DNA of 64,000 bases from an endosymbiont 'TC1' of Trimyema compressum. GTDB lineage: Bacteria; Bacillota; TC1. Made by a program: the position numbers and the translations under genes. Location: assembly GCF_001584725.1 (NCBI RefSeq), contig NZ_CP014606.1:1207501-1271500 (forward strand), given 5' to 3'. The notes below the pieces were generated by a model that saw nothing but the letters and a program-made list of their open reading frames with translations, had not been told where the DNA came from and did not search any database. Position 1 is the first letter of the stretch. The number at the start of each line of letters is the position of its first letter. This document shows positions 6,022 through 55,679 of this stretch, in pieces.

Positions 6022-6202
6022 ATCAGCCTAAAATGGCAAGGTCCAGAAACAACATATACTATTTATAGAAAAATAGCAATGGAAAAAAACAGTTAGGAGA
6101 AACAAATTCAACCAACTTTATTGATTCATATCCCCCAAGTCTCGACCTATTGAATACATTGTCAATTCATCTGAAGATGAATTGACAATAACCTATGAAT
6201 AA
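6022..6202 (+). pseudogene. Ghost of a fibronectin-III-like tail of the PBP
   Basis: Directly after the TAA at 6019-6021 the same frame reads ISLKWQGPETTYTIYRK. A frame change near 6078 then gives GKKQLGETNSTNFIDSYPP, and a second near 6136 gives RPIEYIVNSSEDELTITYE ending at 6202. Joined, these read as one beta-sandwich module of the FN3 type often found at the C-terminus of clostridial PBPs. At least one stop and two frameshifts separate it from the PBP. Confidence 0.75.
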
Positions 6203-6229
6203 TAACTAATATGTAGGAGCGTGAATTAT

Positions 6230-8185: not shown

Positions 8186-8212
8186 GAATAAAAATGTTCC
8201 TGTTAAGATAAT

Positions 8213-8241
8213 TTGACTTTCATTCGGATATGTTGTATAAT
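8213..8241 (+). promoter_or_regulatory. Strong predicted sigma-A promoter
   Basis: TTGACT at 8213-8218 and TATAAT at 8236-8241 with exact 17-base spacing, serving the small gene at 8280. One of the best consensus promoters in the window. Confidence 0.8.
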
Positions 8242-8279
8242 ACATAATATATGTATCGATACAAAGGAAAGTGAATGAT

Positions 8280-8681
8280 ATGGATAATGAAAACACTATC
8301 AAAAAAAAAATTAGCGAAATTACTCTAAGGGATATTAACGCCTTAGAGGAAGAAGAGAAAATTCTCATTGATATTTCCTATTTAGGAAGGCCTTACAACT
8401 TTGGCACAAGAAAATTGCTTCATAAAAATAAGCCTTTTAAAAACAACTATATTATTGATGATAAATATTTTAGAAGCGATGAGCAATTTAGACAAGAGTT
8501 GGCAATTCTAGGTAAAAAAATGATTGGCGAAGTTACAAACAACTTGACTAATGAATTTAAAAATCTATCATTTTTTATTTCAATTTATCAAAATGAAATA
8601 GAAGACTCTATAGTTGAACAACCTATTGTCTATGAGAATGACATGCAAAAAGTAGCGACTTATCATCTAGAATTATTTTAA
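8280..8681 (+). CDS. Conserved-looking hypothetical protein (133 aa)
   Basis: I do not recognise the family. The protein is soluble and highly charged, with no signal peptide or membrane segment. The N-terminal third is a charged helix-rich stretch (KKKISEITLRDINALEEEEK). It is followed by a more ordered region containing YLGRPYNFGTRKLL. A GTG at 8271 touches the AAAGGA box, so the ATG at 8280 with 11-base spacing is chosen. It has its own near-consensus promoter, and the original terminator was just after its stop but is now split by an insertion sequence. A strong promoter and a clean reading frame argue that it is a real gene. Confidence 0.7.
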   Translation: MDNENTIKKKISEITLRDINALEEEEKILIDISYLGRPYNFGTRKLLHKNKPFKNNYIIDDKYFRSDEQFRQELAILGKKMIGEVTNNLTNEFKNLSFFISIYQNEIEDSIVEQPIVYENDMQKVATYHLELF

Positions 8682-8695
8682 AAAAAGACTTTGAT
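8680..8695. terminator. First arm of a bidirectional terminator split by an IS
   Basis: AAAAAAAGACTTTGAT starts at the stop codon of the preceding gene. Its exact complement, ATCAAAGTCTTTTTTT, lies at 9673-9688. Brought together they form one stem with a T-run on each strand, which would terminate both the 8280 gene and gatB. Confidence 0.8.
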
Positions 8696-8708
8696 AAAAA
8701 AGACTGAA

Positions 8709-9597
8709 TTAAACCACCTGTTCAATTCTAAATCGGACAGGTGGTTTTCCATTAAGTTTCCGAACAGGCCTAATATAATTAAAATAGTGAATTGTTTTAG
8801 CGACTACAGAGCGTAAATCATCTTCTAACCAATAACGGGGCGGAATTGAAAACGCAAAACATCTTTAAACCTGCCAAAGAAACTTTCCGTAATGGCATTA
8901 TCTTTTGGGTTATCGACTCTTGACATACTTTGAACAACATTATATTCTCTAAGCAAGGCTTGATAAGCTGATGAAGTGTATTGAATACCTTGGTCACGGT
9001 GTAAAAGGATAGGGTAATCAAGTACGCTTTGTTTTTCCAGAAACCTTTTTGCGGAGTCTAGAACAAATTTCATACCAAGAGAATCACTTAATTCCCATTC
9101 TATAATTTCATTGTTGAATAAATCTAAATAACAAATTAGATAGTAACATTTTCCTTTATGTTTAATATATGTAATATCTGAAACCACTTTTCTGAGAGAA
9201 TCTAGTGTGTTAAATTTTCGATTTAAAATATTAGGATAAATACAGGTAACGGGCTTTACGTGTATATCCTCTAATATTGAGCCGCTTCATTGAACGCCAC
9301 ACAGACACATCACATACTTGCCAATCAACCTCTAATTCAAGTTTATCTCGCAGTTGTCGGTATCCCACATTGAAGGATAGTGGGTATGAATATTTTTAAT
9401 ATGAGCATCTAGCAATACTTGTGTTTTTCATACTGATTAGGTTCTCCTTCTGCTAATTATTGTTACTCCCATTTGTGGATGTTGCTTTCACTTATTCCAG
9501 TTTCTTTTGAGAGGTTTTTTCTAGATTCTCCTGACAAGTATCGCTTTACTATTGATAGCTTTTCTTCTTTACTGTGAAAGGTATATTCTTTTCTCAC
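8709..9597 (-). pseudogene. IS3-family transposase remnant (orfA + orfB, broken)
   Basis: From the GTG at 9597 the reading is an orfA-type helix-turn-helix (KEEKLSIVKRYLSG, then SKETGISESNIHKWE) ending in a stop. Further on, in other frames, comes an orfB N-terminus (SVWRSMKRLNIRGYTRKARY). From 9187 the DDE catalytic core is open: SDITYI (first Asp), LLHRDQGIQYTS (second Asp) and DNAITESFFGRFK (Glu). A frameshift near 8825 separates the C-terminus, which ends KPPVRFRIEQVV at 8709. Several frameshifts and missing central sequence mean that no active transposase can be made. Confidence 0.85.
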
Positions 9598-9619
9598 CGC
9601 CTTTTTTCATTATATAACA

Positions 9620-9656
9620 AAAGATAGGAGACACATCTTTTACGCCTCCTATCTTT
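9620..9656 (-). other. Hairpin upstream of the IS transposase (copy 1)
   Basis: AAAGATAGGAG (9620-9630) pairs with CTCCTATCTTT (9646-9656). On the minus strand it is followed by a T-rich stretch and lies 22 bases before the transposase start. The homologous hairpin in copy 2 (43177-43215) keeps pairing through compensatory changes, so the structure seems to be selected. Confidence 0.7.
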
Positions 9657-9672
9657 ATACTACTTCATAAAA

Positions 9673-9688
9673 ATCAAAGTCTTTTTTT
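9673..9688. terminator. Second arm of the terminator split by IS copy 1
   Basis: ATCAAAGTCTTTTTTT is the exact complement of 8680-8695 and lies 13 bases beyond the gatB stop. In the uninterrupted site it would have formed the gatB terminator. Confidence 0.8.
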
Positions 9689-9701
9689 TATTCAAACTGT
9701 G

Positions 9702-11147
9702 TTATTTTAATTTATCTTTTAGCAATCCATTGACAATACCTGGATTAGCTTTTCCTCTAGAAGCCTTCATAACTTGACCCACTAAAAAGCCTATTGCACT
9801 TTCTTTACCACGCTTATAATCTTCAATTGCTTGAAGATTATTATTAAGCACTTCATCAACAAATGATTCAATCTCACTTGAATCTGTAATCTGAACTAGT
9901 CCCTTTTCTTTCACAATAGCTTCTGGAACTTTACCAGATTTTATTATTTCTGGTATTATTTCTTTAGCTATTTTTCCACTAATAGTCTTATCCTTTATTA
10001 AATCTAGTAATTTTGAAAAAGATTCTATTGTAACTTTTGAAGAAGAAACAGTCTCACCTTCTTCTTTCAAAGATTTCATATAATCACCCATTAAAAAGTT
10101 TACAATAGTTTTGCCATCATGACCATTTTTTCTAACACCATCATAAAAATCAGAAATAATTCTTTCACTTATAATGAGATCAGCATCATATTCAAAAAGG
10201 CCATCATTTTCAATTAGTCGTTTTCTCCTAGCATCAGGTAACTCTGGTAAACTTTCTCTAATTTCTTCAATCCACTCATCTGTCAAAATAATTGGTGGCA
10301 AATCAGGCTCTGGAAAATAACGATAGTCTTGAGCTTCTTCTTTACTACGCATAGATAATGTTATACCTTTTTCATCATCCCATGTTCTAGTTTCTTGAAC
10401 AACAGATTCGCCTTTTTCAATAACCTTGATTTGTCTTCGAACCTCATATTCAATAGATTTTTCTAGCGCTTTTAAAGAATTTAAATTTTTTGTTTCTGTT
10501 CTTGTTCCTAGTTTTTTTTGCCCAATAGGTCTTACCGATACATTAGCATCACAACGCATAGAGCCTTCTTCCATTTTACAGTCGGACACTTCAATATAAG
10601 AAATTATTTGACGCAATTTTTCCATGAAAACTCTAGCCTCTTCACTGTTTTTTATATCTGGTTCAGAAACAATTTCTAACAGAGGAACACCTGCTCTATT
10701 ATAATCTACCTGGGAAGAGCTTGAACTTGTAATTGTTTTTCCTGAGTGTACTAGTTTTCCAGCATCTTCTTCCATATGAGCTCTCGTAATTCCAATTCTT
10801 CTCATCTCTCCATTTACTTCAATATCTAAATGGCCGTTCTCACAAATTGGCAAATCAAATTGTGATGTTTGAAAGTTTTTGGTTAAATCAGGATAGTAAT
10901 AGTTTTTTCTATCAAATTTACAAAAATTAGGTATTTTTGCATTTAATGCATGCCCTGTCATAACCCCAAACTTTACAACCTTTTCATTTAAAACAGGTAA
11001 TGTTCCAGGCATCCCTAAACAAATAGGGCAGGTATGACTATTAGGGCTCCCCCCAAACTCAGTTGAACAACTACAAAATATTTTTGTATTAGTTTTAAGT
11101 TCAACGTGAACCTCTAAACCAATAACTGTTTCATATCCTTTTGCCAT
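9702..11147 (-). CDS. gatB: Asp-tRNA(Asn)/Glu-tRNA(Gln) amidotransferase subunit B
   Basis: GatB binds mischarged Glu-tRNA(Gln) or Asp-tRNA(Asn), phosphorylates the acyl group and accepts ammonia from GatA. The N-terminus GLEVHVELKTNTKIFC and the cysteine cluster CSCSTEF / HTCPICLGMPG (zinc site) are typical. The YqeY-like tail ends with GFLVGQVMKASRGKANP. At 481 aa it is full length. Its ATG overlaps the gatA stop (TAATG at 11145-11149), indicating translational coupling. It is the last gene of the pcrA-ligA-gatCAB operon. Its terminator arm at 9673-9688 is separated from its partner by an IS relic. Confidence 0.97.
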   Translation of the reverse strand: MAKGYETVIGLEVHVELKTNTKIFCSCSTEFGGSPNSHTCPICLGMPGTLPVLNEKVVKFGVMTGHALNAKIPNFCKFDRKNYYYPDLTKNFQTSQFDLPICENGHLDIEVNGEMRRIGITRAHMEEDAGKLVHSGKTITSSSSSQVDYNRAGVPLLEIVSEPDIKNSEEARVFMEKLRQIISYIEVSDCKMEEGSMRCDANVSVRPIGQKKLGTRTETKNLNSLKALEKSIEYEVRRQIKVIEKGESVVQETRTWDDEKGITLSMRSKEEAQDYRYFPEPDLPPIILTDEWIEEIRESLPELPDARRKRLIENDGLFEYDADLIISERIISDFYDGVRKNGHDGKTIVNFLMGDYMKSLKEEGETVSSSKVTIESFSKLLDLIKDKTISGKIAKEIIPEIIKSGKVPEAIVKEKGLVQITDSSEIESFVDEVLNNNLQAIEDYKRGKESAIGFLVGQVMKASRGKANPGIVNGLLKDKLK

Positions 11148-12595
11148 TATAGCACCTCCATATTAGGACTTTGTTTATGATAATCTGTATTTTGTTCAAA
11201 CACGGCCCCTGCGTTCAATAATGCTTTCTCACTAAAAGGTTTTCCTAAAAGTTGCAAGCCAATTGGTAAGCCTTCTGAAAAACCACAAGGAATTGTTAAG
11301 CCAGGAATACCGACTAAATTAATAGAGGCTGTACATAAATCACCTAAATACATTGCAACTGGATCCTTATAACCTTCTCCAATTGTATAAGGTAAACACG
11401 GTGCAACTGGCGTTAATAAAATATCAAATTTTTCAAACGCTTTATCAAAGTCTTGTTTAAGTAAAGTTCTAACTTTCAAAGCTTTTAAATAATAAGCATC
11501 GTAATAGCCAGCACTTAATGCATAAGTTCCTATCATAATTCGTTTCTTTACTTCTTTTCCGAAGAATTGACCTCTTGTTTCTGACATCATGTCTGTAACA
11601 TCTTCAACATCCTCTACTCTAGCGCCATAACGAACACCATCAAATCTAGCTAAGTTTGAGCTAGCTTCAGCCGAAGCAATAATATAATATGCCGGCAAAG
11701 CATACTCTGCATGGGGAATACTAACGTCCTCAATTATTGCACCTAATGATTCATATACCTTTAAAGCCGCCTTTATCTTCTCCATAACTACTGAATCACC
11801 TTTAAAGTATTCTGTTGGTACACCAATTTTTAAACCTTTAATTGATTTTCCTAAGCCATTAGAATAGCTTGGATTAGGCCTATTAACAGATGTAGACTCT
11901 AACGGATCATAGCCACTAATTGTTTCCATAACAATAGCACAATCCTCAACAGTTTTTGTAAAAGAAGCAACCTGATCTAGACTAGAGGCATAGGAAACAA
12001 CCCCAAATCTAGAAACAGTACCATAGGTTGGTTTCATACCTACAATGCCACAAAAAGCTGCTGGTTGTCGAATACTGCCTCCAGTGTCTGTACCAAGGGA
12101 AAATACAACTTCATCAGCAGCAACAGTTGCTGCTGAACCACCACTTGAGCCACCAGGAACATGCTTGGTACTCCAAGGATTTTTAACAGCTCCAAAGGCT
12201 GATGTTTCACTTGTAGAACCCATAGCAAACTCATCCATATTGCATTTCCCAATTAGAATAGGAGATTCATTATTTAATTTCTTCATTACAGTCGCATCGA
12301 ATATAGGCGTATAGTTTTCAAGCATTTTAGAAGCACAGGTTGTTCTTATGCCTTTTGTTGATATATTGTCCTTTACGCCCATTGGAATACCACTCAACAC
12401 AGAAATAGGCTCACCCTTTTTTATTTTATCATCTATTGCTGCAGCGTCTTTTAGAGCTTTTTCCTCAGTAATGGTAATATAAGTCCCTAATTGGGGACTA
12501 GATTTTTTAACTTTATCCAAAGTTGTTTTAACAAGTTCAGTAACAGAATATTCTTTATTAACAAGACTCTCATGAGTCGCTTTTATTTTCCCCAT
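11147..12595 (-). CDS. gatA: Asp-tRNA(Asn)/Glu-tRNA(Gln) amidotransferase subunit A
   Basis: GatA is the glutaminase subunit. It hydrolyses glutamine and channels ammonia to GatB. It belongs to the amidase-signature family: catalytic Lys in GVKDNIST (about residue 75), the Ser-cis-Ser pair in PGGSSGGSAATVAADE (about residues 147-162) and the nucleophile in GTDTGGSIRQPA. At 482 aa it is full length and intact. The gene starts 11 bases after gatC and overlaps gatB by one base, as in other Firmicute gatCAB operons. Confidence 0.97.
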   Translation of the reverse strand: MGKIKATHESLVNKEYSVTELVKTTLDKVKKSSPQLGTYITITEEKALKDAAAIDDKIKKGEPISVLSGIPMGVKDNISTKGIRTTCASKMLENYTPIFDATVMKKLNNESPILIGKCNMDEFAMGSTSETSAFGAVKNPWSTKHVPGGSSGGSAATVAADEVVFSLGTDTGGSIRQPAAFCGIVGMKPTYGTVSRFGVVSYASSLDQVASFTKTVEDCAIVMETISGYDPLESTSVNRPNPSYSNGLGKSIKGLKIGVPTEYFKGDSVVMEKIKAALKVYESLGAIIEDVSIPHAEYALPAYYIIASAEASSNLARFDGVRYGARVEDVEDVTDMMSETRGQFFGKEVKKRIMIGTYALSAGYYDAYYLKALKVRTLLKQDFDKAFEKFDILLTPVAPCLPYTIGEGYKDPVAMYLGDLCTASINLVGIPGLTIPCGFSEGLPIGLQLLGKPFSEKALLNAGAVFEQNTDYHKQSPNMEVL

Positions 12596-28172: not shown

Positions 28173-29298
28173 CTATTTCTGTACAGATATTTTTCGTACT
28201 GCCAAGTATCTTGGTAATTTCATTAGTATAGGGCTAATAGCAACAAAAATAATAATAACTCCACTTAGCACCATACTAAAACTTACAGGTAAATTAGCGG
28301 CATTAACCATACCTCCTCTTCCGGCTTTTAAAGCACCAAATAGGATACCTGCTAAAACAACACCGTAGGGACTTCGTTGCCCTAATAATGCAACAGCAAG
28401 TGCTTCATGGCCGTAATTAAACAAAAAGGCTTCTCTAAGGCGGGTGCTGACTGCCCATAATCTCCCCCCCACATTGGCACCACCCATTCCCGCTAAGCCA
28501 CCCGCTATTAAAACCAGTAGTATTTGGCATGGTAACTACATTCATGCCGGAGTGACGTGCTAAAATTGGATTACCTCCTAAAATCCGATTATTTAAGCCA
28601 ACGGGGGTTCTAAATAAGACAAAATGTGCAATAATAGCTAATACTAATGCAATTGCAATTCCCAAATGGAGTCTTGAGCCACTTAAAATTAAAGGTAAAT
28701 GGGCTGAAGTTACAATTTGAGCAGATTGAGGTGCAAATCCATTAGCTTCTTTAAGTGGTCCCTGGACAAGAGCTCTTAAAACACCAATGGCTATATCATT
28801 TAACAAAATAGCTGTAATAATAATGTTGGTATTATGTTTTGCATTAAAATATCCTGGAATAAAAGCCCAGAAAACGCCACCTAAAAAGCCGGGGCCAATA
28901 AACAAAGGGGAACATGAATTGCTGGGTGGTATTCCTTGAAAATTAACTGCCACTACAGTTGCAAAAATACCTCCAAAAATAATTTGACCTTCTGCTCCAA
29001 GATTCATAATATTTGCCCTTGCAGCAATTGCAATTCCCAGTCCAGTCATAATTAAAGGAATAGCTCTATTCAAACTATTACCAATGTTGTTTAGATTTCC
29101 AAAAGCACTTTCAAATAGAGAGGAATAAGCTAAAACAATAGAACCACCTTGAATTTTTATAATAATGCTAACAACGAGTAAAGAAAAAATTACAGTTATA
29201 ACTGGTACTAATATATTAAATATTTTCTGAAACTTTCTGACAAGATCATCAAGCTGATCATAATTGACTGTTGTCTTTTCCTTATTAAAAGATTCCAT
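28173..29298 (-). pseudogene. BMP-type ABC transporter permease 1 (NupP-like), broken
   Basis: The first 250 codons from 29298 are open and include several membrane helices and AIAARANIMNLGAEGQIIFGG, a hallmark of this permease family. Near 28520 the frame shifts. The other frame continues LLVLIAGGLAGMGGANVGGRL and REAFLFNYGHEALAVALLGQ to the end at 28173. A single indel therefore splits an otherwise well preserved gene of about 375 codons. A run of seven C follows at 28464 but is not itself the break. Confidence 0.85.
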
Positions 29299-29307
29299 AA
29301 CAACCTC

Positions 29308-30828
29308 CTATTCATGGATTGCTTTTGTACCAAGCATCATTGTCCCAATTTCAGGAATGCTAGCTATATTCCCTTCAACCTCGCCCATTATTTCCCCTTG
29401 ATGCATAACTAAAATCCTATCACTTAAAGAAATTAGTTCTTCTAATTCTGTTGAAACTAAAAGAATTCCTTTTTGCTTTTTTCGTTCTTCCATTATTTTG
29501 TGATGAATAAATTCAATAGCACCAATATCAAGACCATGAGTAGGATGACAGGCAATTAATAATTCATGCTGTCTTTCAACTTCTCTCGCAATTACGACTT
29601 TTTGCTGATTGCCTCCACTCATATTACCTACTTGGGTTTCTGGGCTTTTAGCCTTAATCATATAATTCTCAATAACTGTCTTTACTTTTTCCTTAATAAC
29701 TTTAAAATTCAAGACACCTCTTTTAGAATAGGGTTCTTTCCATTCCTCTTTAAGAATAAAATTATCACTAACTGAAAAATCTAAAGCCAGTCCTTCAACC
29801 TGTCTTTGAAATGGAATATTGGAGATACCTTTCTCTAATATATTTTTAGGAGTCAAATGATCGAGAGATTCTCCTGCCATAATAATAATCCCCTATCTTC
29901 TTTTTGTTAAGTCCCATAATAGCTTCAATTAACTCTAGTTGCCCATTCCCATCAACTCCTGCAATACCAAAGACTTCGCCAGCACCAACTGTAAAACTAA
30001 CATCATTTACAGCAACAATGCCCATATCATTTTCCACTGTAAGATGGCTAACACTTAAAATGTCTTTACCTATATTTTGAGGCACTTTATTCATTTCAAG
30101 GGATACTTCTCTACCTACCATTAATCTAGCTACTTCTTCTTCATCTAAATTTTCCACAGGAAAAGTTCCAATAAATGCTGCATCTCTTAAAATACTAATA
30201 CGATTACATATTTCAACTACTTCTCTCATTTTATGAGTAATAAAAATAACTGTATTATCTTTTTCAACCCACGTTTTAAGTACCATAAAAAGTTCATCTA
30301 CTTCTGTTGGTGTCAAAACAGCTGTTGGTTCATCCATGATTAATGTTGTCGCGCCTTTATACAAGGCTTTAATAATTTCAACTTTCTGTTGATCTCCAAC
30401 ACAGAGATTTTGTACTTTCTCATCTAATGGAATTATTAAACCTGTGTTTTTTGAAGAGCCTCTATTTCCTTTCTTGCAACTTTAAAATCTAGAAAAGGCT
30501 CTCTTTTAAGTTTTGTCCCTAAAATAATATTTTCAATAACTGTAAATTTGGGAATTAGCATAAAATGTTGATGAACCATGCCAATTCCAAGTTCTATAGC
30601 CTCTTGAGGAGAATTAATTTCAATAGATTGCCCATCCATTAAAATCTCTTCTTCATCCTTTTTTAAAAGACCATAAAGAATATTCATCAGAGTGCTTTTA
30701 CCAGCACCATTTTCTCCCAATAGAGCGTGGATTTCTCCTTTTGCAAAACCAATAATTGTTATATGATTACAGGCAGTTACACTAGGAAACCGCTTTACAA
30801 TATTCTGCATTTGTATAAAGTCGCCCAT
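29308..30828 (-). pseudogene. BMP-type ABC transporter ATPase (NupO-like, two ABC domains), broken
   Basis: The fragment from 30828 carries the first Walker A (LLGENGAGKSTLMNI) and a Q-loop. A break between about 30436 and 30364 removes its signature region. The second fragment holds Walker B TLIMDEPTAVL and the start of the second ABC domain (VFGIAGVDGNGQLELIEAIMG). A further frameshift near 29880 precedes the last fragment with MSGGNQQKVVIAREVE and the second Walker B. The order and length match the ~510-aa tandem ATPases of nucleoside importers such as NupO. Two or more lesions abolish function. Confidence 0.87.
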
Positions 30829-30848
30829 ATTATAGTCCTCCTTTGTTA

Positions 30849-32591
30849 CTACTCCTTCATAAAACCAAATCTATGAAGAAAAATGAACATACTCAATAAT
30901 TTATTTATAATAGGTTCGCCTTCATTTTTATAACCTAGCTTTTCAGCTACTTCATCAATGCGTATTGACTCCTTTTCAAAATCATCAGCACTTGCATTAG
31001 ACATCATACCGTAAATTTCAAGCGTAAGAACTGCCTCCTCTAGCCCTACTTTCATTACAACGCAGGCTCCTGAATAATTGTCAACGGACTTTAATGCGCC
31101 TAATATTTCTTCACAGTTTTCACCAATGCCAATCAGATATGAAACAGGTGCAGGAAATGATGTAGCAATAGCACCTTCATCAATATGAATTCCAATCATA
31201 TAACCATTAACAATATGGCGTTTCTTATTATGCTTATAACGTTGCACAATAGAAATACGGTTAAGTGACTTTCCTTCATATTCCTCTAAAATGACACCAT
31301 CTTTTATAGGTAATCAGATTTCTTGATAAAATTTCAAGTGACCTCTGCCAAAAATATCAAATAAGTAAACTTTCACCTTAGTGCCATCTGCTGATATTTC
31401 TAAAATATTATCTGAGAGGTCCTCAGCCTTCAAGTCATCTAAACCCATTACACTTTTTTCCACCATATTAGAATAGTCTATCTGAACCTGCCTAAGAATT
31501 TTCCGGTTTTTAACCACTAATTCTCCCTTTTGAAAGACGTACTTTGGTTTAATTTTACTGAGACTATCTGTCAAAACAATATCAACATAGTGACCTGGTG
31601 CAATTACACCCAATTTATCTTCCGTTCTAAAATGTCTTGCTGTATAGTACGTAGATATTTTAATTGCCTTAATAGGTGCAATTCCCATAGTAACTGCTTT
31701 TGTAATAAAAAAGTCCATATGCCCCTTTGTTTTCATATGATTAAAAGATAAATTATCTGAGCAAAACATAAAATTATCCAACGGATATTTTTTATTTACA
31801 ATTGCAGTTAAAAGATTTTAAACTTTACCTACTCCAAATTTAATTTGAGTAGCAAAACCATAACGTAAACTTTTAGCTATATCATCACTGTTCCAAACAT
31901 CATGATTATTATTAGCACCAATAGCTGGTATTATGTTTAAATCATTGTCAGACAATGTAGTCAAACCCCAGTGTCCATTGACAAGACCTCCAGCTACTTT
32001 AGCGCAAGCCATAGCTTCCATGCTTTCGGCATTTTCAGAACTATACGTAAAGTGGTCAAACTCTCCAAGGCCTATAACAGGTTCTTCATTCAGCAGTGCC
32101 TTTGTAGTCTCTAACTCAACTTTCTTGGCTGGAGCAAAAGCAAAAATTCGATAGGGAAGATTCTGGTAATTTTTAAAAAGTCCTTTTGCAGCTTCAACGC
32201 CTTTATCTTTAGCTGAGCCAATAAAATCTAGAAATTCCACAAAACATGTAGTTGTTCCGCAAGGAACCATAACCTCACCTAAGGCAACGGGATTAACTAA
32301 CTGAGATTCAAAATGAAAATGCGCATCAATTAAACCAGGAATGGCATAAAGATTTTCACCATCAAATTAATCTTTTACTTTAACAATTGCCTTATCAGGG
32401 TTAATGGCTACAATTTCGCCATCATTAATTAAAATTGAACCTTCATAAACAGTTTCACCTAAAATATCTAAAATTCTTAGATTATTAATTAATAAGTCTG
32501 CTTCTTTTCTACCTCGAATAACCTTAAATTGATTCTTGATTTTTTCCAATTGTTTATCTTCCGGACTTGTCATAACATCCTCCTTTTTCAT
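30849..32591 (-). pseudogene. ade: Adenine deaminase, broken
   Basis: Ade converts adenine to hypoxanthine and ammonia. The N-terminus (from 32591) reads ADLLINNLRILDILGETVYEG. After a stop at 32367 the next parts give IPGLIDAHFHFESQLVNP (metal-binding HxH) and VPCGTTTCFVEFLDF. Then, from 31781, come SDNLSFNHMKTKGHMDFF, AIKISTYYTARHF and GVIAPGHYVDIVL, and from 31247 the C-terminal RHIVNGYMIGIHIDEGAIATSF and LEIYGMMSNASADD. At least three interruptions lie within about 580 codons. Together with the adjacent importer it formed a purine uptake and salvage operon. Confidence 0.87.
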
Positions 32592-45386: not shown

Positions 45387-47294
45387 TTATTGATTGCCTT
45401 TATCTCTAATTTCATCAGCAATTAAAGTTTCAATAACATCTACATCAAAAGCGCCTTGATCTCCTTGACCGTACTTTCTTGCAGCTACTTTGTTTTCACT
45501 CATTTCTTTATCACCAATTACAAATAAATAAGGTATTTTTTTCATTTGACCTTCTCTAATTTTATAACCTAATTTCTCATTACGATCATCAACAGAACAA
45601 CGGATACCTGATCTTCTAAGCTTTTCAGCTACAGAATAAGCAAAGTTATAATGAGGTTCTGCAATGGGTACTAATTTTACTTGAATTGGCGCTAACCAAG
45701 TTGGAAAAGCTCCTGCATAATGTTCGATTAAAATACCAATGAAGCGCTCAATAGAACCAAAAATAGCTCTATGAATCATAGCTGGTCTATGTTTGCTACC
45801 ATCCTCACCAATATAATGGATATCAAATTTTTCAGGCATTTGGAAGTCTAATTGAATAGTGCCACACTGCCAAGTTCTGCCAATAGAATCTTTTAAATGA
45901 AAATCAATTTTCGGACCATAAAATGCGCCGTCTCCTTCATTTAACTCATAAGGCATTTCTAAATCTTCTAATGCATCTTTCAAAGCATCTGTTGCTTGAT
46001 TCCATAACTCTACTGAACCCATGGCTTTTTCAGGACGGGTAGATAACTCAACACTATATTCAAAATTAAAGGTACGGTAAACTTCATCTACCATTTCAAT
46101 TACCTTTTTAATCTCTTCTTTAATTTGACTATATAACATAAAAATATGAGCATCATCTTGAGTAAATGCCCGTACACGCATTAGTCCATGAAGAACGCCT
46201 GATTTCTCATGGCGATGAACTAAGCCCATTTCAGCATAGCGAATAGGCAACTCTCTATAACTGTGTTGACCATGCTTGTAAACAAGCATGCATCCTGGAC
46301 AGTTCATTGGTTTTATGGCAAATGGTACATCATCAATTTCTGTAAAATACATATTTTCATGATAGTGATCCCAATGTCCAGATTGTTCCCATAGCTTTCT
46401 ATTTAAAATAATAGGTGTATTAATTTCATCATACCCCCATTTTCCATAAAGACCTTTCATGTAGTTTTCCAATTCATTTCTCAGAATCATACCTTTAGGT
46501 AAGAAAATTGGAAAGCCTGGTCCCTCTTCTTCAATTGTAAATAAATCAAGTTCTGCACCGAGTTTTCTATGATCTCTTTTTTTAGCTTCTTCAAGTAATA
46601 TTAAGTAAGCAGACAATTCTTTTTTATTAGCAAAAGAAGTACCATAAATTCTTTGAAGCATTTTATTTTTTTCATTTCCTCTCCAATATGCTCCTGCTAA
46701 ACTCATTAACTTAAATGACTTAAGATACCCTGTTGAAGGCATTTGTGGTCCACGACATAAATCCATAAAACCACCTTGTTCATAAGCGCTAATAACTTCT
46801 CCTTCAGGCAAATCATTAATAAGCTCCACTTTATAAATTTCACCTTCAGAAGCAAAATATTCAAGCGCTTCTTCTCTTGATAATTCTCTTCTCACAAAAG
46901 GACTGTTTCTTTTAACAATTTCACTAATTTTCTTTTCAATTTTCTCAAGATCCTCTGGCGTAAAAATATGAGAAGTATCAAAATCATAATAGAAGCCATT
47001 TTCAATTACTGGACCAATTCCAAATTTTGCATCTGGAAATAATTCTCCAACTGCTTCTGCCATAATATGCGCACTACTGTGTCTATAGGTATCCAATCCC
47101 TCTTTTGAGTCTAAAGTAAATAACTCTACCTTGTCTCCTTCATTTACAACGGTAAACATATCTACCAATACATCATTTACTTTGCCTACAATAGCTTCTT
47201 TTTTCAAACGCGGACTTATAGCACCGGCTACTTCAAATAAATTAGCGCCTTTTTCAACTTGAAAACCACTGCCATCTTTTAAAAATACTTTCAT
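45387..47294 (-). CDS. thrS: Threonine--tRNA ligase
   Basis: This class II synthetase charges tRNA-Thr and edits Ser-tRNA(Thr). In order: N-terminal TGS domain (about residues 1-62), editing domain with the HSSAHIMAEAV motif (His near 73), the class II catalytic core (GPGFPIFLPKGMILRNEL, MNCPGC with zinc Cys, LPIRYAEMGLVHRHEKSG) and the C-terminal anticodon-binding domain (VKLVPIAEPHYNFAYSVAE). At 635 aa it is full length and intact. Expression is controlled by the T-box leader at 47341-47580. Confidence 0.97.
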   Translation of the reverse strand: MKVFLKDGSGFQVEKGANLFEVAGAISPRLKKEAIVGKVNDVLVDMFTVVNEGDKVELFTLDSKEGLDTYRHSSAHIMAEAVGELFPDAKFGIGPVIENGFYYDFDTSHIFTPEDLEKIEKKISEIVKRNSPFVRRELSREEALEYFASEGEIYKVELINDLPEGEVISAYEQGGFMDLCRGPQMPSTGYLKSFKLMSLAGAYWRGNEKNKMLQRIYGTSFANKKELSAYLILLEEAKKRDHRKLGAELDLFTIEEEGPGFPIFLPKGMILRNELENYMKGLYGKWGYDEINTPIILNRKLWEQSGHWDHYHENMYFTEIDDVPFAIKPMNCPGCMLVYKHGQHSYRELPIRYAEMGLVHRHEKSGVLHGLMRVRAFTQDDAHIFMLYSQIKEEIKKVIEMVDEVYRTFNFEYSVELSTRPEKAMGSVELWNQATDALKDALEDLEMPYELNEGDGAFYGPKIDFHLKDSIGRTWQCGTIQLDFQMPEKFDIHYIGEDGSKHRPAMIHRAIFGSIERFIGILIEHYAGAFPTWLAPIQVKLVPIAEPHYNFAYSVAEKLRRSGIRCSVDDRNEKLGYKIREGQMKKIPYLFVIGDKEMSENKVAARKYGQGDQGAFDVDVIETLIADEIRDKGNQ

Positions 47295-47340: not shown

Positions 47341-47580
47341 AAAAAAAGCTATCCTCTCATAAGAGACGATAGCATCGTGGTTCCACTCTAATTTAAGAAA
47401 TCATTATTACAACTTCTCCTCAGAAGCTTTTAACACAAGCATTACGTGTTCCCTTTTTTCTTCAGGTTCCTCTCCTAGGTGGTTTTCTTTTTAATGCCTT
47501 TAAGAATTTTCAGCACCATTCTCTCTGTAAAGGCTTTTAAAAATACTCATCCTAATCATCAATTTATACTATTAATTTAC
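47341..47580 (-). promoter_or_regulatory. T-box leader of thrS
   Basis: On the minus strand the T-box sequence TGGAACCACG (47385-47376) is followed by a terminator. That terminator is GCTATCGTCTCT paired with AGAGGATAGC plus seven T (47373-47341). The upstream part begins with the stem I region (AGAGAGAATGGTGCTG near 47525) and ends before thrS. Uncharged tRNA-Thr would stabilise the antiterminator. The specifier codon was not assigned with confidence. Confidence 0.88.
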
Positions 47581-47949: not shown

Positions 47950-50642
47950 TTATTTTTTATTAACTCCTTTTAGTTTTTTGATTAATATAGCACTTCCTAT
48001 ACTTACGCCTAGAGACATTAAAGCTAATCCAAGAAATTGAAACCAATTTCTACCTGTTTTCGGTAACTGTAATCCTGTAACTTTTCCACTACTTTTGTCT
48101 TCAGACACTGTAGAATCTTTCACAAAATTAAATTGGAGTTGTCCATTTGTTAATACATGATTACTTTCCAGAGGAAATAAACCTGAACCAGTTGGCATTA
48201 TTTGAATTCGCGCAAAAATTGCCTGCTTTAATTACTAAACCATTGTAAGTATAATCATCAATAGAGACTGAACCATTAGTGCTATCAACATAATCAGTTA
48301 AAATTAACTTTTGGTTTGCAAATAAAGGAACAATTTTCCCTGCTTGTTTAACTTCAACTAATGAATTTAATGCTATTGCGGATATATCAGAAATACTTTT
48401 AATAGTATATGGAGAAATTCCTTCTTTTAGCACAAGTTCTGCTTGTGCTTCATAGTTAAAAACAATATTAGATAGTCCAAGCGAATTTAATTTGTCTTGA
48501 TAATTATTTGGTAATAAATTATCAGCTAATCCTAAGAAGGTTAAATTAGTCAATTGATTCGCAGCAAGATTAATATGGACTAAATTAGTTAAGTTTCCTA
48601 TTACATCTGGAAAACTAATTAATTGATTAGAATCTAAATCCAATTCAGTTAATTTAGTTAAATTAGCTATTTCAGATGGAACAACACTTATTAAATTGTT
48701 ACTAAGATTTAAATATTGCAAATCACTTAAAGTGCCTATTTTAGTTGGAATATTGGTTATATTGTTATTATGTAAATCCAAAATCTGCAATTTATTTAAT
48801 TCTTCTATTCCAGTAATATCAGTAATCCCGCTGTTTGATGCAGTTATATTAGTGCAATTATTAACCATAACGCTAGTTAACTGAGCATTAACATCTCCCC
48901 CCCCACTTAACATATTAGCAACTATTTGTGCTAATTTTGCATCTGGGAAAATTTCATTAATTTTACCATATAATCTTTCCCGCTGAGCATATAATATCAC
49001 ATCGTTATTTGGCATTGGGGTTGTTCCAAGTTGCCAATTTATGCCACTGCCATCAGCTGCTGTATTCCAACCGGTAAAAAGGTATAGCCAAACCATGTTG
49101 AATCCGTTACGGTTGTTTCTACTCCTCCTGTATTCACTGTTTGATTTCCTGGAGCTGTTCCTGATCCTCCATTTAAATTAAAGCTTAAGGTATGGGGATT
49201 ACCCTGCCACTGAACATATAATGTTACATTATTGCCTGGCATTGTAGTTGAATTTAATTGCCAATTTATTCCACTTCCATTAGCAGCAATATTTCAGCCT
49301 AAAAAGTATATACTGTCCATACTGGTACTGATAAGAAGTTGTTGTAAAGTCAAGTTCAATTGTTCCAGTAGTAATTGCATGATCACTATTATTAGGAAAT
49401 AAGCCTGTGCCAGTAGCACGTATATTCCCTTTTACTGCCCCCTGCTTTTATCACAAAATTACCACTAAAATAGCTATCAATATTAACTGGATTATTACCA
49501 TTATCAACACAATTGGTTATAATATAATTTTAACTTGAAGACAAAGATTTTCCTGATTGTAATGTCACTTTATTGCCAAAATTTAAATTATTATAATCCG
49601 TTTTAGATGCTATACTATTTGGCGTAAGACCAGTTTTTAATAACAATTGATCTTGTGTTTCATAATTTAAAGCGCCTCCAACTATTCCTAGTCCATTAAG
49701 TACAGTAGGGTAGTTGGTTGGCGGTAAACATTGTGAAACAGAAAAGCCATGCAAATTCGTCAGATTTTGTAAACTAGATGGCAAACTTGTTAGTTGATTT
49801 CCAGCTAAATTTAAAGTTGTTAATTTAGACAAGTTGCCTAAATTATCTGGTAAGCTTGCTAATTGATTATTATTTATAGACAATTCAGTTAAATTTGTAA
49901 GATTGTAAATTGTGGCTGGTATTTGTGTAAGTTTATTTGAATCTAACAATAACCTCGTTAAATTTGATAATTGACCAATATTATCCGGAATACTTGTTAT
50001 CTGATTTCCAGCTGCAAAGTCTCCTAGCCATAAGGATTGTAATTTGGAAAGGTTTAATATGCTTGGAGGGAAAGTAGTTAATGCATTGTCATCTAAACTT
50101 AAAGATGCTAAATTTGTAAGATTACTTAGATCTGGTACACTTGTTAAATTATTACCCGTCACATATAATTCGGTTAAATTTGTAAGATTGCTAATATCAC
50201 TAGGTAAAATCGTAATATTATTATAGTCTAAAGTTAATTACTTTAAATTTGTAAAATTAGTTATACAACTAGGTACAGTTGCTAATCGATTTAAATTTAG
50301 AGCAATCGTATTTAATTTTGTAAGGCTACTCATACTGCTAGGTAAATCTGTCAAACTGTTATTACTAAGATTAATATTTGTTAAATTAGTAAATATTCCT
50401 ATTCCAGTAACATCTGTTAATACACAATCAGACAGTTCAAGAGAAGTAGCATTTAAAGTAGTTGCATCCATTACATCAGTTGGATGCTTACCAAAATAAC
50501 CAGAAATCACTTGCGCTGTATGGGAATTAGGAAATTGAGAATTAAATGTAACAGCTGCTGTTACAGGCTTATTAATAGTAATAGTAGTAGTAATAGCAAT
50601 AAATAGAATAGAAAAAAATAAACAAATAAGTTTTTTTAACAT
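47950..50642 (-). pseudogene. LPXTG-anchored leucine-rich-repeat surface protein (internalin-like), broken
   Basis: In order on the minus strand: ribosome site and ATG at 50642, signal peptide (LICLFFSILFIAITTTI), first LRR array (NLTNINLSNNSLTDLPSSM and similar, 23-residue units) interrupted by TAA at 50238, then a spacer. Listeria-Bacteroides (InlB B) repeats follow (SFNLNGGSGTAPGNQTV, TGWNTAADGSGINWQLGTT), then a second LRR array (48161-49000), a spacer and an LPKTG sorting signal with a hydrophobic tail and KKLKGVNKK. At least two stops (50238, 49530) and several frameshifts (near 49440, 49300, 49060, 48190) break the roughly 890-codon gene. A run of eight C at 48897 is currently in frame. 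It would have been an adhesin-like protein fixed by sortase. Confidence 0.87.
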
Positions 50643-50979
50643 CAAAAATCCCCCGATTTATCAATTATTATACACATTGTCTCATATTAAATTAGGAATT
50701 GTCAATGTTTTTTATACTTTATTTTACATCAGGGGATTGTAAATTTTTTTAGTCACTATTAAAAATACAATAAGACATAAATTACTGAAAACTACTTTCA
50801 TGGGTATAACTGACATTATATTTGTTGATGATTGCCAAAAAAGAGTACTGAAAAAATTATTATTCTGACTAAACCAAACGTCCAGTTTGACCTTATTTTA
50901 CAATTAAAGACTTGTTTTTTGCAACATCTTACATCAAACCATTTAACTTATAAACGCTAAAAGGCTTTACGCATATTAA
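50643..50979. other. Intergenic stretch without recognisable gene
   Basis: AT-rich sequence between the surface protein gene and the phosphatidyltransferase remnant. No open frame, riboswitch or strong promoter was recognised on either strand. Confidence 0.5.
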
Positions 50980-51586
50980 TCATGTTTTCTTTTTTAACAG
51001 TTTATATCCTTCTATAAATCTCTGAATTACTGTAATAGCAACACCAATAGCAACACCAATGCAAATATATACGCAATAATAGTAATCCGGCTAGGAACAG
51101 CAAGCATTAGTGTAATAAAAATAAAACCTTCTGTTCTCTCAATAAGTCCAGGTTGATAATAAAAACTTTTCTCACCTTTTTGAGGTGTTAAAGCACCAAC
51201 TGTTAAGAAAACGGTCATACTTAAAACAAACATACTGACTGTAATTAGTATAGGAAAAACTGATTCTTGATGAACATAAGCTACAGCAATCAAAACAAAT
51301 AATTCAACAAGTCTATCACATGTAATATCAATTAATGTCCCCACTTTAGATGTTTTACCCATTAAACGACTCATAGTTCCATCTACAGCATCTAAATAAC
51401 CTGATATCCACAATAATATAATAGCAATGATACTTAAACCTAAAAAACATAAACAAAGGCACTTGCTAAGCCTATACATAAACCAATAATAGTTATTAAA
51501 TTAGGAGAAATGCCTTTTATAGAAAGAGGTTTAGCTACAATATTAATACAAAATTGAAATAAGCTACGTCCTTTACTATCTAACAT
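50980..51586 (-). pseudogene. CDP-alcohol phosphatidyltransferase (YnjF-like), frameshifted
   Basis: From the ATG at 51586: MLDSKGRSLFQFCINIVAKP, then GISPNLITIIGLCIGLASAF. A frameshift at a run of six T (near 51450) leads to LGLSIIAIILLWISGYLDAV. The catalytic stretch follows: DGTMSRLMGKTSKVGTLID and then ITCD. A second shift near 51065 gives the end ITVIQRFIEGYKLLKKKT. The family motif is DG..AR........G...D...D; here Ser replaces Ala. It sits directly behind the ynjD-like ATPase, as ynjF does in the E. coli ynj cluster. Confidence 0.82.
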
Positions 51587-51587
51587 A

Positions 51588-52523
51588 CTAACAACTCTTT
51601 CCTTTCTTAATAAAACATTGCATTGAAAAATCAATACTTAAATATATGGTTTTGCCAATAGTATAAGGTAATAGATTGTAGCTGTAATATACTATATTTT
51701 CCCCAAAATCCTTAATGATATATTTATAGCCCCTATTACCACAATAGAGTATTTCTACAATTTCACCTGAAATACCTTCATTAGAAATAATAATATCTTT
51801 TTGATTAAGCATAATATGGCCAAATCCCTCCCTAATACTTCCACATGGAAAAACACCTTCAGTAAGGTAATAATTACCCTCTTTGATAATTACAGGAAAA
51901 ATATTCTCTTTGCCTAAAAACTCAGCAACTGAAAGTGTTTTCGGCTGGGTAACTAAAATTGTAGTAATTTTAAATTCCTCCTGTACACATTTAACAAACT
52001 TCCCCATATCTTTCCTTAAATTAGTATCCAATTTAGAAAAAGCTTCATCTAACAATAAAACTGAAGGTTCAATAGCCAATGCTCTCCCTAATGCCACCCT
52101 TTGTTTTTGACCTCCTGAAAGCGTATAAGGATACTTAAATGCTTCTGATTGCAAACCCATTCTCCTCAAAATTAAGAAATCTGTTTTCCTTCTTATATCT
52201 GCAGATTTCATTTTAGCCATTCTTAAGCCAAAACTTATATTGTCTTGCACATTCATATGCGGAAAAAGCAAAAGATCTTGGTGAACCATAGGCGCCTTCC
52301 TTTTATTCATAAGGACTTTATTAACTTCTTGATTGTTAAAACAAATAAATCCAACATCAGGCTCTAAAAAACCAGTAATGCAATTTAGCAGAGTAGTTTT
52401 CCCACAGCCAGATGGTCCTAGTATTGATGTTAATTTTCCTTTAGGAAAAGAACAACTTATATTATATAAAACAGTCTTTTTATTAAAATGCTTTGAAATA
52501 GCATTAACTTTAATATCTACCAT
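51588..52523 (-). CDS. ABC transporter ATP-binding protein (YnjD/PotA-like)
   Basis: 311-aa ATPase with Walker A GPSGCGKTTLLN, Q-loop VHQDLLLFPHM, signature LSGGQKQRVALGRALA and Walker B VLLLDEAFSKLD. A C-terminal domain of about 100 residues (from about residue 210) resembles a regulatory TOBE-like fold. The ATG at 52523 is chosen because upstream codons overlap the permease remnant. It is intact, but both its permease and its binding protein are damaged, so it cannot form the original importer. The order of binding protein, permease, ATPase and phosphatidyltransferase parallels ynjB-C-D-(E)-F. The substrate is unknown. Confidence 0.85.
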   Translation of the reverse strand: MVDIKVNAISKHFNKKTVLYNISCSFPKGKLTSILGPSGCGKTTLLNCITGFLEPDVGFICFNNQEVNKVLMNKRKAPMVHQDLLLFPHMNVQDNISFGLRMAKMKSADIRRKTDFLILRRMGLQSEAFKYPYTLSGGQKQRVALGRALAIEPSVLLLDEAFSKLDTNLRKDMGKFVKCVQEEFKITTILVTQPKTLSVAEFLGKENIFPVIIKEGNYYLTEGVFPCGSIREGFGHIMLNQKDIIISNEGISGEIVEILYCGNRGYKYIIKDFGENIVYYSYNLLPYTIGKTIYLSIDFSMQCFIKKGKSC

Positions 52524-52533
52524 TATTACTTCT

Positions 52534-53054
52534 CTAAAATTCTTTCTTTTTTTGATATTTTTTAATAAGTTGCTTTCCAATGAGGAGGGAAATAATTAGT
52601 ATCACTAAAAATAAAATGCTATATACACTCCCTATCGCTCGTTGGCCACTGGCAATATAAGGAAACATGTCCATAGTAAGGGTACGAATTTGGCCACCAC
52701 CCAAAAACATAGTTACAAAATATTGACTAAATGAAAATATAAATACAAAGCCTCCAGCTATTATTAATGTAGGTAATAGATCAGGCAATGTAATATGAAT
52801 AAAAACTTGCCACCTATTTGCACCTAGCTGAATTTCTTGGGATTCCCGTCCTAAACCAATTAACTGAAAACTATCCATAATAAACCAGACTGCGTAGGGA
52901 ATAGCTAAAACAATATGAATTATTAAAAAAGCTAAAAAACTATTTACTATGCCTAAAGGTACAAAATTAATTTGTATTCCCATTGACACACTAACAATAG
53001 GTACGATTAAGGGCGTCATTAATAGCAACCTTAATAAATGTCTTCCTCTATTTA
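52534..53054 (-). pseudogene. Permease remnant (second half of YnjC-like protein)
   Basis: Codes for the last ~170 residues of an ABC permease (LIVPIVSVSMGIQINFVPLG, then EIQLGANRWQVFIHITLPDL, the EAA-like loop that contacts the ATPase). YnjC has two such membrane domains; here only the second half remains. It is fused in frame to the end of the binding-protein gene (to 53397), so a deletion removed the stop of the latter and the first half of the permease. The junction near 53054 is inferred from where the similarity changes. Confidence 0.75.
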
Positions 53055-54131
53055 CCACCCAATACTTCCTCTCTCCAAATTTTTCTACAAGCGGTACTAC
53101 CTCACTAGAAAATTCAGGCAAACGCTTGCTTTCTAGTGTTTCAATAGAAATAGTTCCTTCATTATTCAATACAAACAACGCTTTCTCTTCAGTATTTAAA
53201 AAAGCTTCTTCAATAACTGTAATGTCGCCTTTCCCTAAAGGATTGGCTTTACTACTTTGCATTTCAGGACTTAATATAGTATTAATCACTAGTGCTGCCC
53301 CTGCTTTATTAATGCTATTAAAAGGAATCGCTAAATAATTCGTATTGCCTACTGTTCCTTTATCCATTACAAATGTTTCTGAAAAGTTTTCTTCCACTCA
53401 CCTTTAGCTATTTTTTGAGTAGCTGTAAAAGGAGCATAATTCATAGTGAAATTTACTTCTCCATCCGCATACATATTATCTAATTGTGGTAAATTCGTTG
53501 GATAAGTTTTACCTTCCCTCCATAAATTTGGCGCAATTTCTTTTAAATAGTCCATTGCTGGTGCAATATCCTTTTTAACTTCTGATTCATCAGCTGGTAA
53601 ATTTTTAATCGTTTCTAAATCACATGTATTATAAATAATAGTTCTCACAAAAGCACTTCCTGTAAAATCTGTAACTTCTGGATAAGTAAAAACCCCTTTA
53701 TTTTTTTATATTCTTTAAGTTTTTCAGGTGAACTAGGCATATCACCTACTTTAGCACCATCTCCAATAAGAACAAGCTGTAAAAAAATTTCCCCCATTAA
53801 TCCAAATAATATCCATAGTTCCATTATCATTATTGCCTTGTTTATCTGTAATTAATTTATTAAGTATTTTCATCAATATCCATAGGGACTCTGCTTAAGG
53901 TAATATTATACAATTCTTTTACAGTAGGTGATAATACATTATCAATCCAATCATTTGTTTCTTGACTACCACCCCATCCATAAAATGCAACTGTTGAATT
54001 AGAACCTTCATCTACAATTTGATTCCATGATAAATTATCAAGTGTTGATACACCTTTAGTATTAGAACAGCCCATCCCTATAAATGAAACCATTAACAAT
54101 AACCCCAACACTATCATTACTATTTTTTCAT
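53055..54131 (-). pseudogene. YnjB-like substrate-binding lipoprotein, broken
   Basis: The ATG at 54131 is followed by six A, and one more A would restore KKIVMIVLGLLLMVSFIGM with lipobox GMGC. After it come VAFYGWGGSQETNDWIDNVL and ITLSRVPMDIDEN, closely like YnjB. Further frames give YPTNLPQLDNMYADGEVNFT and NYLAIPFNSINKAGAALVIN. At least four indels lie between 53400 and 54130. The final part is fused to a permease piece by a deletion. Confidence 0.8.
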
Positions 54132-54929: not shown

Positions 54930-55679
54930 TTAAGCATAAATATTCATTCTTTTGCCTCGAGCAAAACCAATAATTTGAACCCCTGAGGCTCGTCCCATTT
55001 CGACAGCTAACGTTGTGGGAGCCGTGTGAGAGATAACTAAAGGAATCCTAGCTTTAATTGCTTTAGCTAATAAATCTGAGGATATTCTCCCTGTTGAAAA
55101 TAAAATTTTATCATCAAAAGAAATATCATGAGTTAATGCATAGCCAATATTTTTATCAACTGCATTATGACGACCAATGTCATCAAACCCACAAATAATA
55201 CCATTAACATCTCCTAAAGCAACTCTATGAACACCACCAGTTTCTAGAAAAACTTGTCCTTCATCTTTAAAATCTTTCATTAGTTCTGAAATTCTTTCAG
55301 ATTCTATAGGAATTCTATGAGTGATTTTTTCTTCTGTTACATAGTCTTCAATTAATGATGTATGTAAGCTTCCTTTACCACAACCTGATAAAATAGCTCT
55401 TTCACTAACTTCTTTTTTTGGCACAAAAGACTTTGTTAACTGAAAACAAAAAGTATGTCCCATATCAATAATGTCTCTGACGTCTTCCTTCTTTTTTATA
55501 ACACCATCAAAAAAAAGAAAACCATAACCTAATTCAACTAGATTTTCTGGTGAACACATTAATGTAATATAATGATTTTTTTCTATGTATATATGAAAAG
55601 GAACTTCTTCTGCTACTTTATCCATTACAGTTTCTCTGCTACTTCCTCTTATTTTAATAACTTCTAGTTCCTTAATCAT
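54930..55679 (-). CDS. fdhD: Formate dehydrogenase accessory sulfurtransferase FdhD
   Basis: FdhD passes sulfur from a cysteine desulfurase to the molybdenum/tungsten cofactor of formate dehydrogenase. AEEVPFHIYIEKNHYITLMC (residues ~23-42) and ENLVELGYGFLF lie in the N-terminal half. AILSGCGKGS holds the conserved Cys in the loop region; only one Cys of the CxxC pair is seen. FDDIGRHNAVDKNIGYAL and STGRISSDLLAKAIKARIPL are family hallmarks. At 249 aa it is full length. Its ATG overlaps the sigH stop by 4 bases. Its presence implies a formate dehydrogenase elsewhere in the genome. Confidence 0.95.
   Translation of the reverse strand: MIKELEVIKIRGSSRETVMDKVAEEVPFHIYIEKNHYITLMCSPENLVELGYGFLFFDGVIKKKEDVRDIIDMGHTFCFQLTKSFVPKKEVSERAILSGCGKGSLHTSLIEDYVTEEKITHRIPIESERISELMKDFKDEGQVFLETGGVHRVALGDVNGIICGFDDIGRHNAVDKNIGYALTHDISFDDKILFSTGRISSDLLAKAIKARIPLVISHTAPTTLAVEMGRASGVQIIGFARGKRMNIYA

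Follow-up and report, generated by a model that had tools for sequence, protein, structure and literature searches.

The window, a 64,000-nucleotide stretch of the genome of TC1, an endosymbiont of Trimyema compressum, very probably carries the relic of a B-C1-C2-D-F operon, which encoded a YnjBCD-type ABC importer together with a YnjF-type CDP-alcohol phosphatidyltransferase. The operon appears to be decaying neutrally, and a deletion of about 1.15 kb has left an in-frame chimera without expected function. This assessment concerns the relic and does not extend to the substrate of the ancestral system. Frame changes, gaps or lost motifs occur in every ynj gene of the window (Table 1), so there is no support for the operon as a working feature. 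The window copy thus represents ordinary genome decay in a symbiont, and the value of the wider suggestion, a link between the importer and the phosphatidyltransferase, comes from intact relatives.

Table 1. Remnants of ynj- and ydj-type genes in TC1. Positions are those of the window except in the last three rows, which list genes outside it.
Feature	Position	Strand	Evidence or state
ynjB N-terminal piece, signal peptide and residues ~1-87	53860..54131	-	tblastn 40-43% to intact YnjB (54129-53872); NF008633 12-79
ynjB second piece, residues ~89-119, WINGGNF motif, other frame	53645..53870	-	tblastn 61% at 53867-53775
ynjB third piece, residues ~193-303	53367..53705	-	tblastn 47% at 53702-53370; NF008633 202-291
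ynjB fourth piece, C-terminal, match 53382-53083	within open frame 52534..53397	-	NF008633 289-391
Deletion-made open frame, YnjB C-terminal part (~53397-53060) and C2 residues ~94-268 (~53049-52537)	52534..53397	-	NF008633 and BPD_transp_1 in one frame; junction alignment
ynjD-like ABC ATPase, open, in-frame loss of ~32 residues	51588..52523	-	tblastn 36% over full length with gap (homology 52523-51597); ABC_tran E 2.4e-30
ynjF-like CDP-alcohol phosphatidyltransferase, split	50980..51634	-	PF01066 E 6e-10; 41-50% to intact YnjF-type proteins
VTT gene and FeS gene	C1:175523-177230		broken (stops or frame changes)
Rhodanese gene	289449-290302		broken (stops or frame changes)
ydjZ-like and ydjY-like genes	1467245-1469004		broken (stops or frame changes)

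Decay of the individual genes

The Ynj-type identity of the genes, proposed earlier, is borne out by matches to NF008633, BPD_transp_1, ABC_tran and PF01066, and no profile places them in another transporter family. With E-values between 1e-17 and 1e-60, chance is ruled out as the source of the matches of the window genes. On the minus strand of the PacBio-assembled window, YnjB matches the NCBIfam family NF008633 (PRK11622) in four pieces. About 73 residues are missing between the second and the third piece, and several frame changes come in addition. The pieces score 62, 69.7 and 79.6 bits and stay below the curated cut-off of 203 bits for family membership, while full-length intact YnjB relatives reach 446-514 bits. 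Judged by its sequence, the TC1 ynjB is a pseudogene with clear homology to the family but not a working member of it.

The open frame downstream spans 864 bases (287 aa). Its residues 6-107 match positions 289-391 of the YnjB profile and residues 117-277 match BPD_transp_1, which confirms the earlier view of an in-frame fusion made by deletion. The YnjB homology stops near 53083-53060 and the homology to the C2 permease (RGRHLLRLLLMTPLIVP) begins near 53049; both edges agree with the previously suggested junction at 53054. In intact Bacillota operons, B and D are separated by two permease genes, C1 of approx. 290 aa and C2 of approx. 270 aa. For this reason, the fused part is not one half of a single permease gene as had been assumed: part of a permease is indeed fused, but C1 has been lost entirely, together with the start of C2. 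Measured on the geometry of locus L032, the deletion comprises about 1.15 kb: the end of ynjB, the whole of C1 and approx. 93 C2 codons. Of the two permease domains of a functional importer, C1 is therefore absent and C2 lacks approx. 93 N-terminal residues. The simple reading of the sequence is that the fusion is a deletion scar which stayed in frame by accident and from which no function is to be expected.

The ynjD-like ATPase frame of 311 aa is still open. Walker A (GPSGCGKTT), LSGGQ and LLLDE are kept, and of these four ATPase motifs only the H-loop is missing: approx. 32 residues including its histidine are lost after VTQ (VTQ for VTH), at a place where homologues have VTHDKEEALMVSDRI. 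ABC ATPases that lose the H-loop histidine should no longer hydrolyse ATP. Since this residue is missing, the TC1 ATPase is presumably inactive. The ynjF-like gene is interrupted by a frameshift near 51440-51480, and its last codons (IQRFIEGYKLLKKKT) are apparently in yet another frame. The PF01066 motif D..DG..AR...G...D...D is still readable as DAVDGTMSR...GTLIDITCD, with AR changed to SR. The intact F proteins that share 41-50% identity with the TC1 copy are those of loci L030, L033 and L034.

It is very improbable that the frame changes arose as sequencing errors in an assembly made from long reads only and that the cell itself carries an intact operon. PacBio-only assemblies can miscount homopolymers, and several of the frame changes lie near A/T runs. 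However, the TC1 assembly, based on PacBio reads only, was built at 839x coverage with repeated Quiver polishing (PMC5034148), which makes a low-coverage artefact an unlikely cause of the damage. Moreover, homopolymer errors do not account for the approx. 73 residues missing from B, the 1.15 kb missing at the junction or the 32 residues missing from D, and housekeeping genes nearby, thrS among them, are intact. We find it hardly credible, in turn, that selection maintains the fusion as a new membrane-anchored protein composed of a binding lobe and half a permease. The frame is open across the junction and retains 16 of the 21 near-invariant C2 sites, but its YnjB part is no more than the last quarter, devoid of a signal peptide and of a complete ligand site, and its permease part covers about two thirds of one of the two permeases. 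Its ATPase partner has no H-loop, and the TC1 genome shows decay everywhere. A recent onset of the decay follows from the open fusion and ATPase frames and from the retained near-invariant sites, which in YnjD amount to 33 of 40. On sequence grounds, some residual role of the ynj remnants may persist.

Genome context of the relic

The TC1 assembly comprises 1,622,248 bases in two contigs of 1,586,453 and 35,795 bases. The genome has been described as undergoing reduction, with 147 partial IS copies (PMC5034148). ABC-ATPase domains were matched 65 times in TC1, but only 23 of these matches are near full length and free of stops, although a few of the others are natural partial domains such as those of UvrA. 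Open frames of at least 100 aa account for 73% of the sampled TC1 sequence, compared to 87% in a sister genus. None of the genomes sampled from the same family (five) or the same order (four) has YnjB.

Relatives of further E. coli ydj/ynj genes were found outside the window (Table 1). The B-C-D-F order is thus accompanied by VTT, YdjY, FeS and rhodanese genes in the same genome, all of them broken, so most of the E. coli ydj/ynj set was present in the ancestor of TC1. The joint decay of these genes was rejected as proof that they are functionally linked: intact ABC-ATPase matches make up well under half of the total in TC1, and with roughly half or more of comparable TC1 genes broken, broken partners are to be expected.

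Several other features of the window were annotated in passing. The region 28173-32270 (minus strand) contains a nucleoside-type ABC transporter, whose permeases and ATPase occupy three frames, and an adenine deaminase in two frames, both of which appear to be fragmented. Beside the ynj relic, the gene of a leucine-rich-repeat secreted protein (48161-50645, minus strand) is distributed over four open frames and is an apparent pseudogene. The thrS gene (45387-47294) is intact and has a T-box leader directly upstream (47359-47568, minus strand; Rfam RF00230, 99.6 bits). On its other side, the relic adjoins an intact fdhD-like gene (54930-55679, minus strand); this gene was not found in the five genomes of the same family, which ruled out dating the loss by synteny.

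Conserved partners of ynjB in intact loci

We compared 81 distinct ynjB loci from named genomes and contigs, whole-genome relatives and three plasmid records after removal of duplicates. The sample is made up of the best 80 matches to a Bacillota-based query and is biased towards Bacillota. Of the 81 loci, 36 have a YnjF-type gene no more than 8 kb from ynjB, in each case even within 5 kb, compared to none among 520 genes located 5-10.5 kb from ynjB. The proposed cross-phylum association between the importer and a CDP-alcohol phosphatidyltransferase is therefore upheld; the findings that might have overturned it, assignment to another transporter family or lack of co-occurrence with ynjF-like genes, were not obtained. 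Other partners within 8 kb are VTT proteins (49 loci), nucleoside hydrolases (26), FeS proteins (25), rhodaneses (at least 24), APH kinases and TIGR04283 glycosyltransferases (18 each) and DUF2064 proteins (15). The best matches of E. coli YdjX, YdjY, YdjZ and YnjE among the Bacillota neighbours share 42-56% identity with them. The survey thus gives the E. coli ydj/ynj genes a conserved context consisting of the importer, VTT membrane proteins of the YdjX/YdjZ type, YdjY or FeS proteins and a rhodanese.

Intact counterparts of the TC1 arrangement, which the preliminary description had recommended searching for, exist: the order B-C-C-D-F of the window recurs in L033, L085, L086, L103 and L118. 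Locus L033 (B-C1-C2-D-F-ydjY-VTT) and L118 from Acetoanaerobium noterae (B-C1-C2-D-F-ydjY-VTT-VTT) follow the same order as TC1 with intact genes and two permeases. L030 (rhodanese-VTT-F-B-C1-C2-D) is likewise intact with two permeases, in contrast to the broken TC1 copy. The enterobacterial plasmid pVPS18EC01101 resembles the window in that ynjBCDF lie in one order on one strand, but it differs from TC1 by a single permease of 538 aa and by FAD oxidoreductases upstream, one of which has a VTT-like domain. Conjugative enterobacterial plasmids (L119, pVPS18EC01101, 4683-11991) carry ynjBCDF behind two such FAD oxidoreductases, the first being the one with the VTT-like domain.

The E. coli K-12 cluster ydjXYZ-ynjABCD-ynjE/ynjF has the YnjB family, a permease, an ATPase and a CDP-alcohol phosphatidyltransferase in common with TC1. 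The gene order had been described as that of this cluster, and the B-C-D-F order is indeed present. Yet the parallel is not exact, since ynjF lies on the opposite strand in K-12, where YnjC is a single protein of 511 aa, whereas Bacillota have two permease genes. Moreover, the K-12 ATPase has 217 aa and those of Bacillota approx. 340 aa. Relatives of ydjX, ydjY, ydjZ and ynjE are located near ynjB in Bacillota but elsewhere and broken in TC1, which, unlike the K-12 cluster, is left with a non-functional copy and scattered partners. Nor does the former statement that ynjE is lacking hold for the ancestral set, given the rhodanese genes near ynjB and the broken one in TC1.

The 38 F proteins linked to ynj genes, two of them from duplicate loci, all have the catalytic motif if A or S is allowed, and all are matched by E. 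coli YnjF. Their nearest relatives are phosphatidylinositol-phosphate and archaetidylinositol-phosphate synthases; the solved structures are those of phosphatidylinositol-phosphate synthases.

Two mutually exclusive modules

Whereas the importer and its redox and sulfur partners are constant, there are two alternative partner modules. The module found in place of ynjF consists of nucleoside hydrolase, APH kinase, DUF2064 and GT2 (TIGR04283). None of 63 loci with enough flanking sequence combines ynjF (present in 32) with any gene of this module (hydrolase in 20). The corresponding Fisher p value of 6e-9, or 4e-7 with Planococcaceae collapsed, does not fully correct for kinship in either form. 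On a quick YnjB tree the module state changed nine times, at least six of them on well-supported branches. An independent-pairs test with few pairs, namely five independent and supported ones, gave opposite or unchanged states throughout; it points in the same direction but, with so few pairs, does not reach significance by itself (p 0.06-0.25). In six whole genomes, TIGR04283 scored above cut-off only in the three of the hydrolase type, and a YnjF-type gene was present only in the three of the F type. This exclusion provides a rule that narrows the possible substrate, and the intact operons named above are available for its study.

As F is one of two mutually exclusive modules, a lipid would be at most one fate of the cargo. 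In intact relatives, YnjB would capture a small solute, which C1C2D would import and YnjF would join to a CDP-activated lipid; in ynjF-less genomes, the nucleoside hydrolase/kinase/DUF2064/GT2 module would handle the cargo instead. We tentatively suggest that these mutually exclusive routes, to a CDP-activated lipid via YnjF or into a hydrolase/APH kinase/DUF2064/GT2 pathway, could define an unrecognised redox- and sulfur-linked head-group or glycolipid system in Bacillota, Spirochaetota and enterobacteria. Because the nearest solved relatives of F are phosphatidylinositol-phosphate synthases, a polyol or sugar type of acceptor is our best, albeit tentative, guess.

It is unlikely that ynjF adjoins the transporter merely by shared ancestry of the neighbourhood. 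More than half of the loci lack ynjF, and in E. coli K-12 it lies on the other strand, but the sharp distance limit around ynjB and the strict exclusion of the other module speak for a functional link. Furthermore, its position varies (before B, after D or on the opposite strand) and nevertheless stays close in Bacillota, Spirochaetota and enterobacterial plasmids. Quite unlikely, too, is a system serving a sugar or nucleoside that contains sulfur, selenium or arsenic, in which the importer would take up a 5'-substituted nucleoside or sugar and either F or the nucleoside hydrolase/kinase/DUF2064/GT2 module would attach or salvage it. Rhodanese, YedE-TusA and FeS/disulfide oxidoreductases near ynjB are in line with such a cargo, as are the nucleoside hydrolase, the APH-type kinase and DUF2064, which resembles nucleotide-sugar transferases, and the naming of TIGR04282 and TIGR04283 after arsenosugar clusters. 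However, ArsS did not score above cut-off in any of the six intact genomes, F-type operons manage without the module, and the YnjB fold does not single out nucleosides. An arsenosugar function as such was rejected since TIGR04167, which we take to be the model of the radical SAM protein ArsS, gave no match above cut-off in genomes G026, G045, G051, G055, G093, G097 or G000. YedE halves and a TusA-like protein adjoin ynjB in L031, L038, L057 and L116, suggesting a sulfur or selenium context of these loci.

The AlphaFold model of an intact YnjB (pLDDT 92) has the general fold of a type II binding protein; the ligands of its best matches are phosphonates, polyamines, iron, sugars and sugar phosphates. 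A substrate assignment from this structure was dropped, as a great number of type II binding proteins fit the model to much the same degree. Sequence searches of solved structures returned only remote polyamine-binding matches for YnjB and no match for the APH kinase. A literature search found no functional study of ynjBCD or ynjF. In E. coli, FNR activates ydjXYZ-ynjABCD and ynjE (PMC3688515), which fits an anaerobic or redox role of the system, and BaeR weakly induces ynjAB (PMC2731931).
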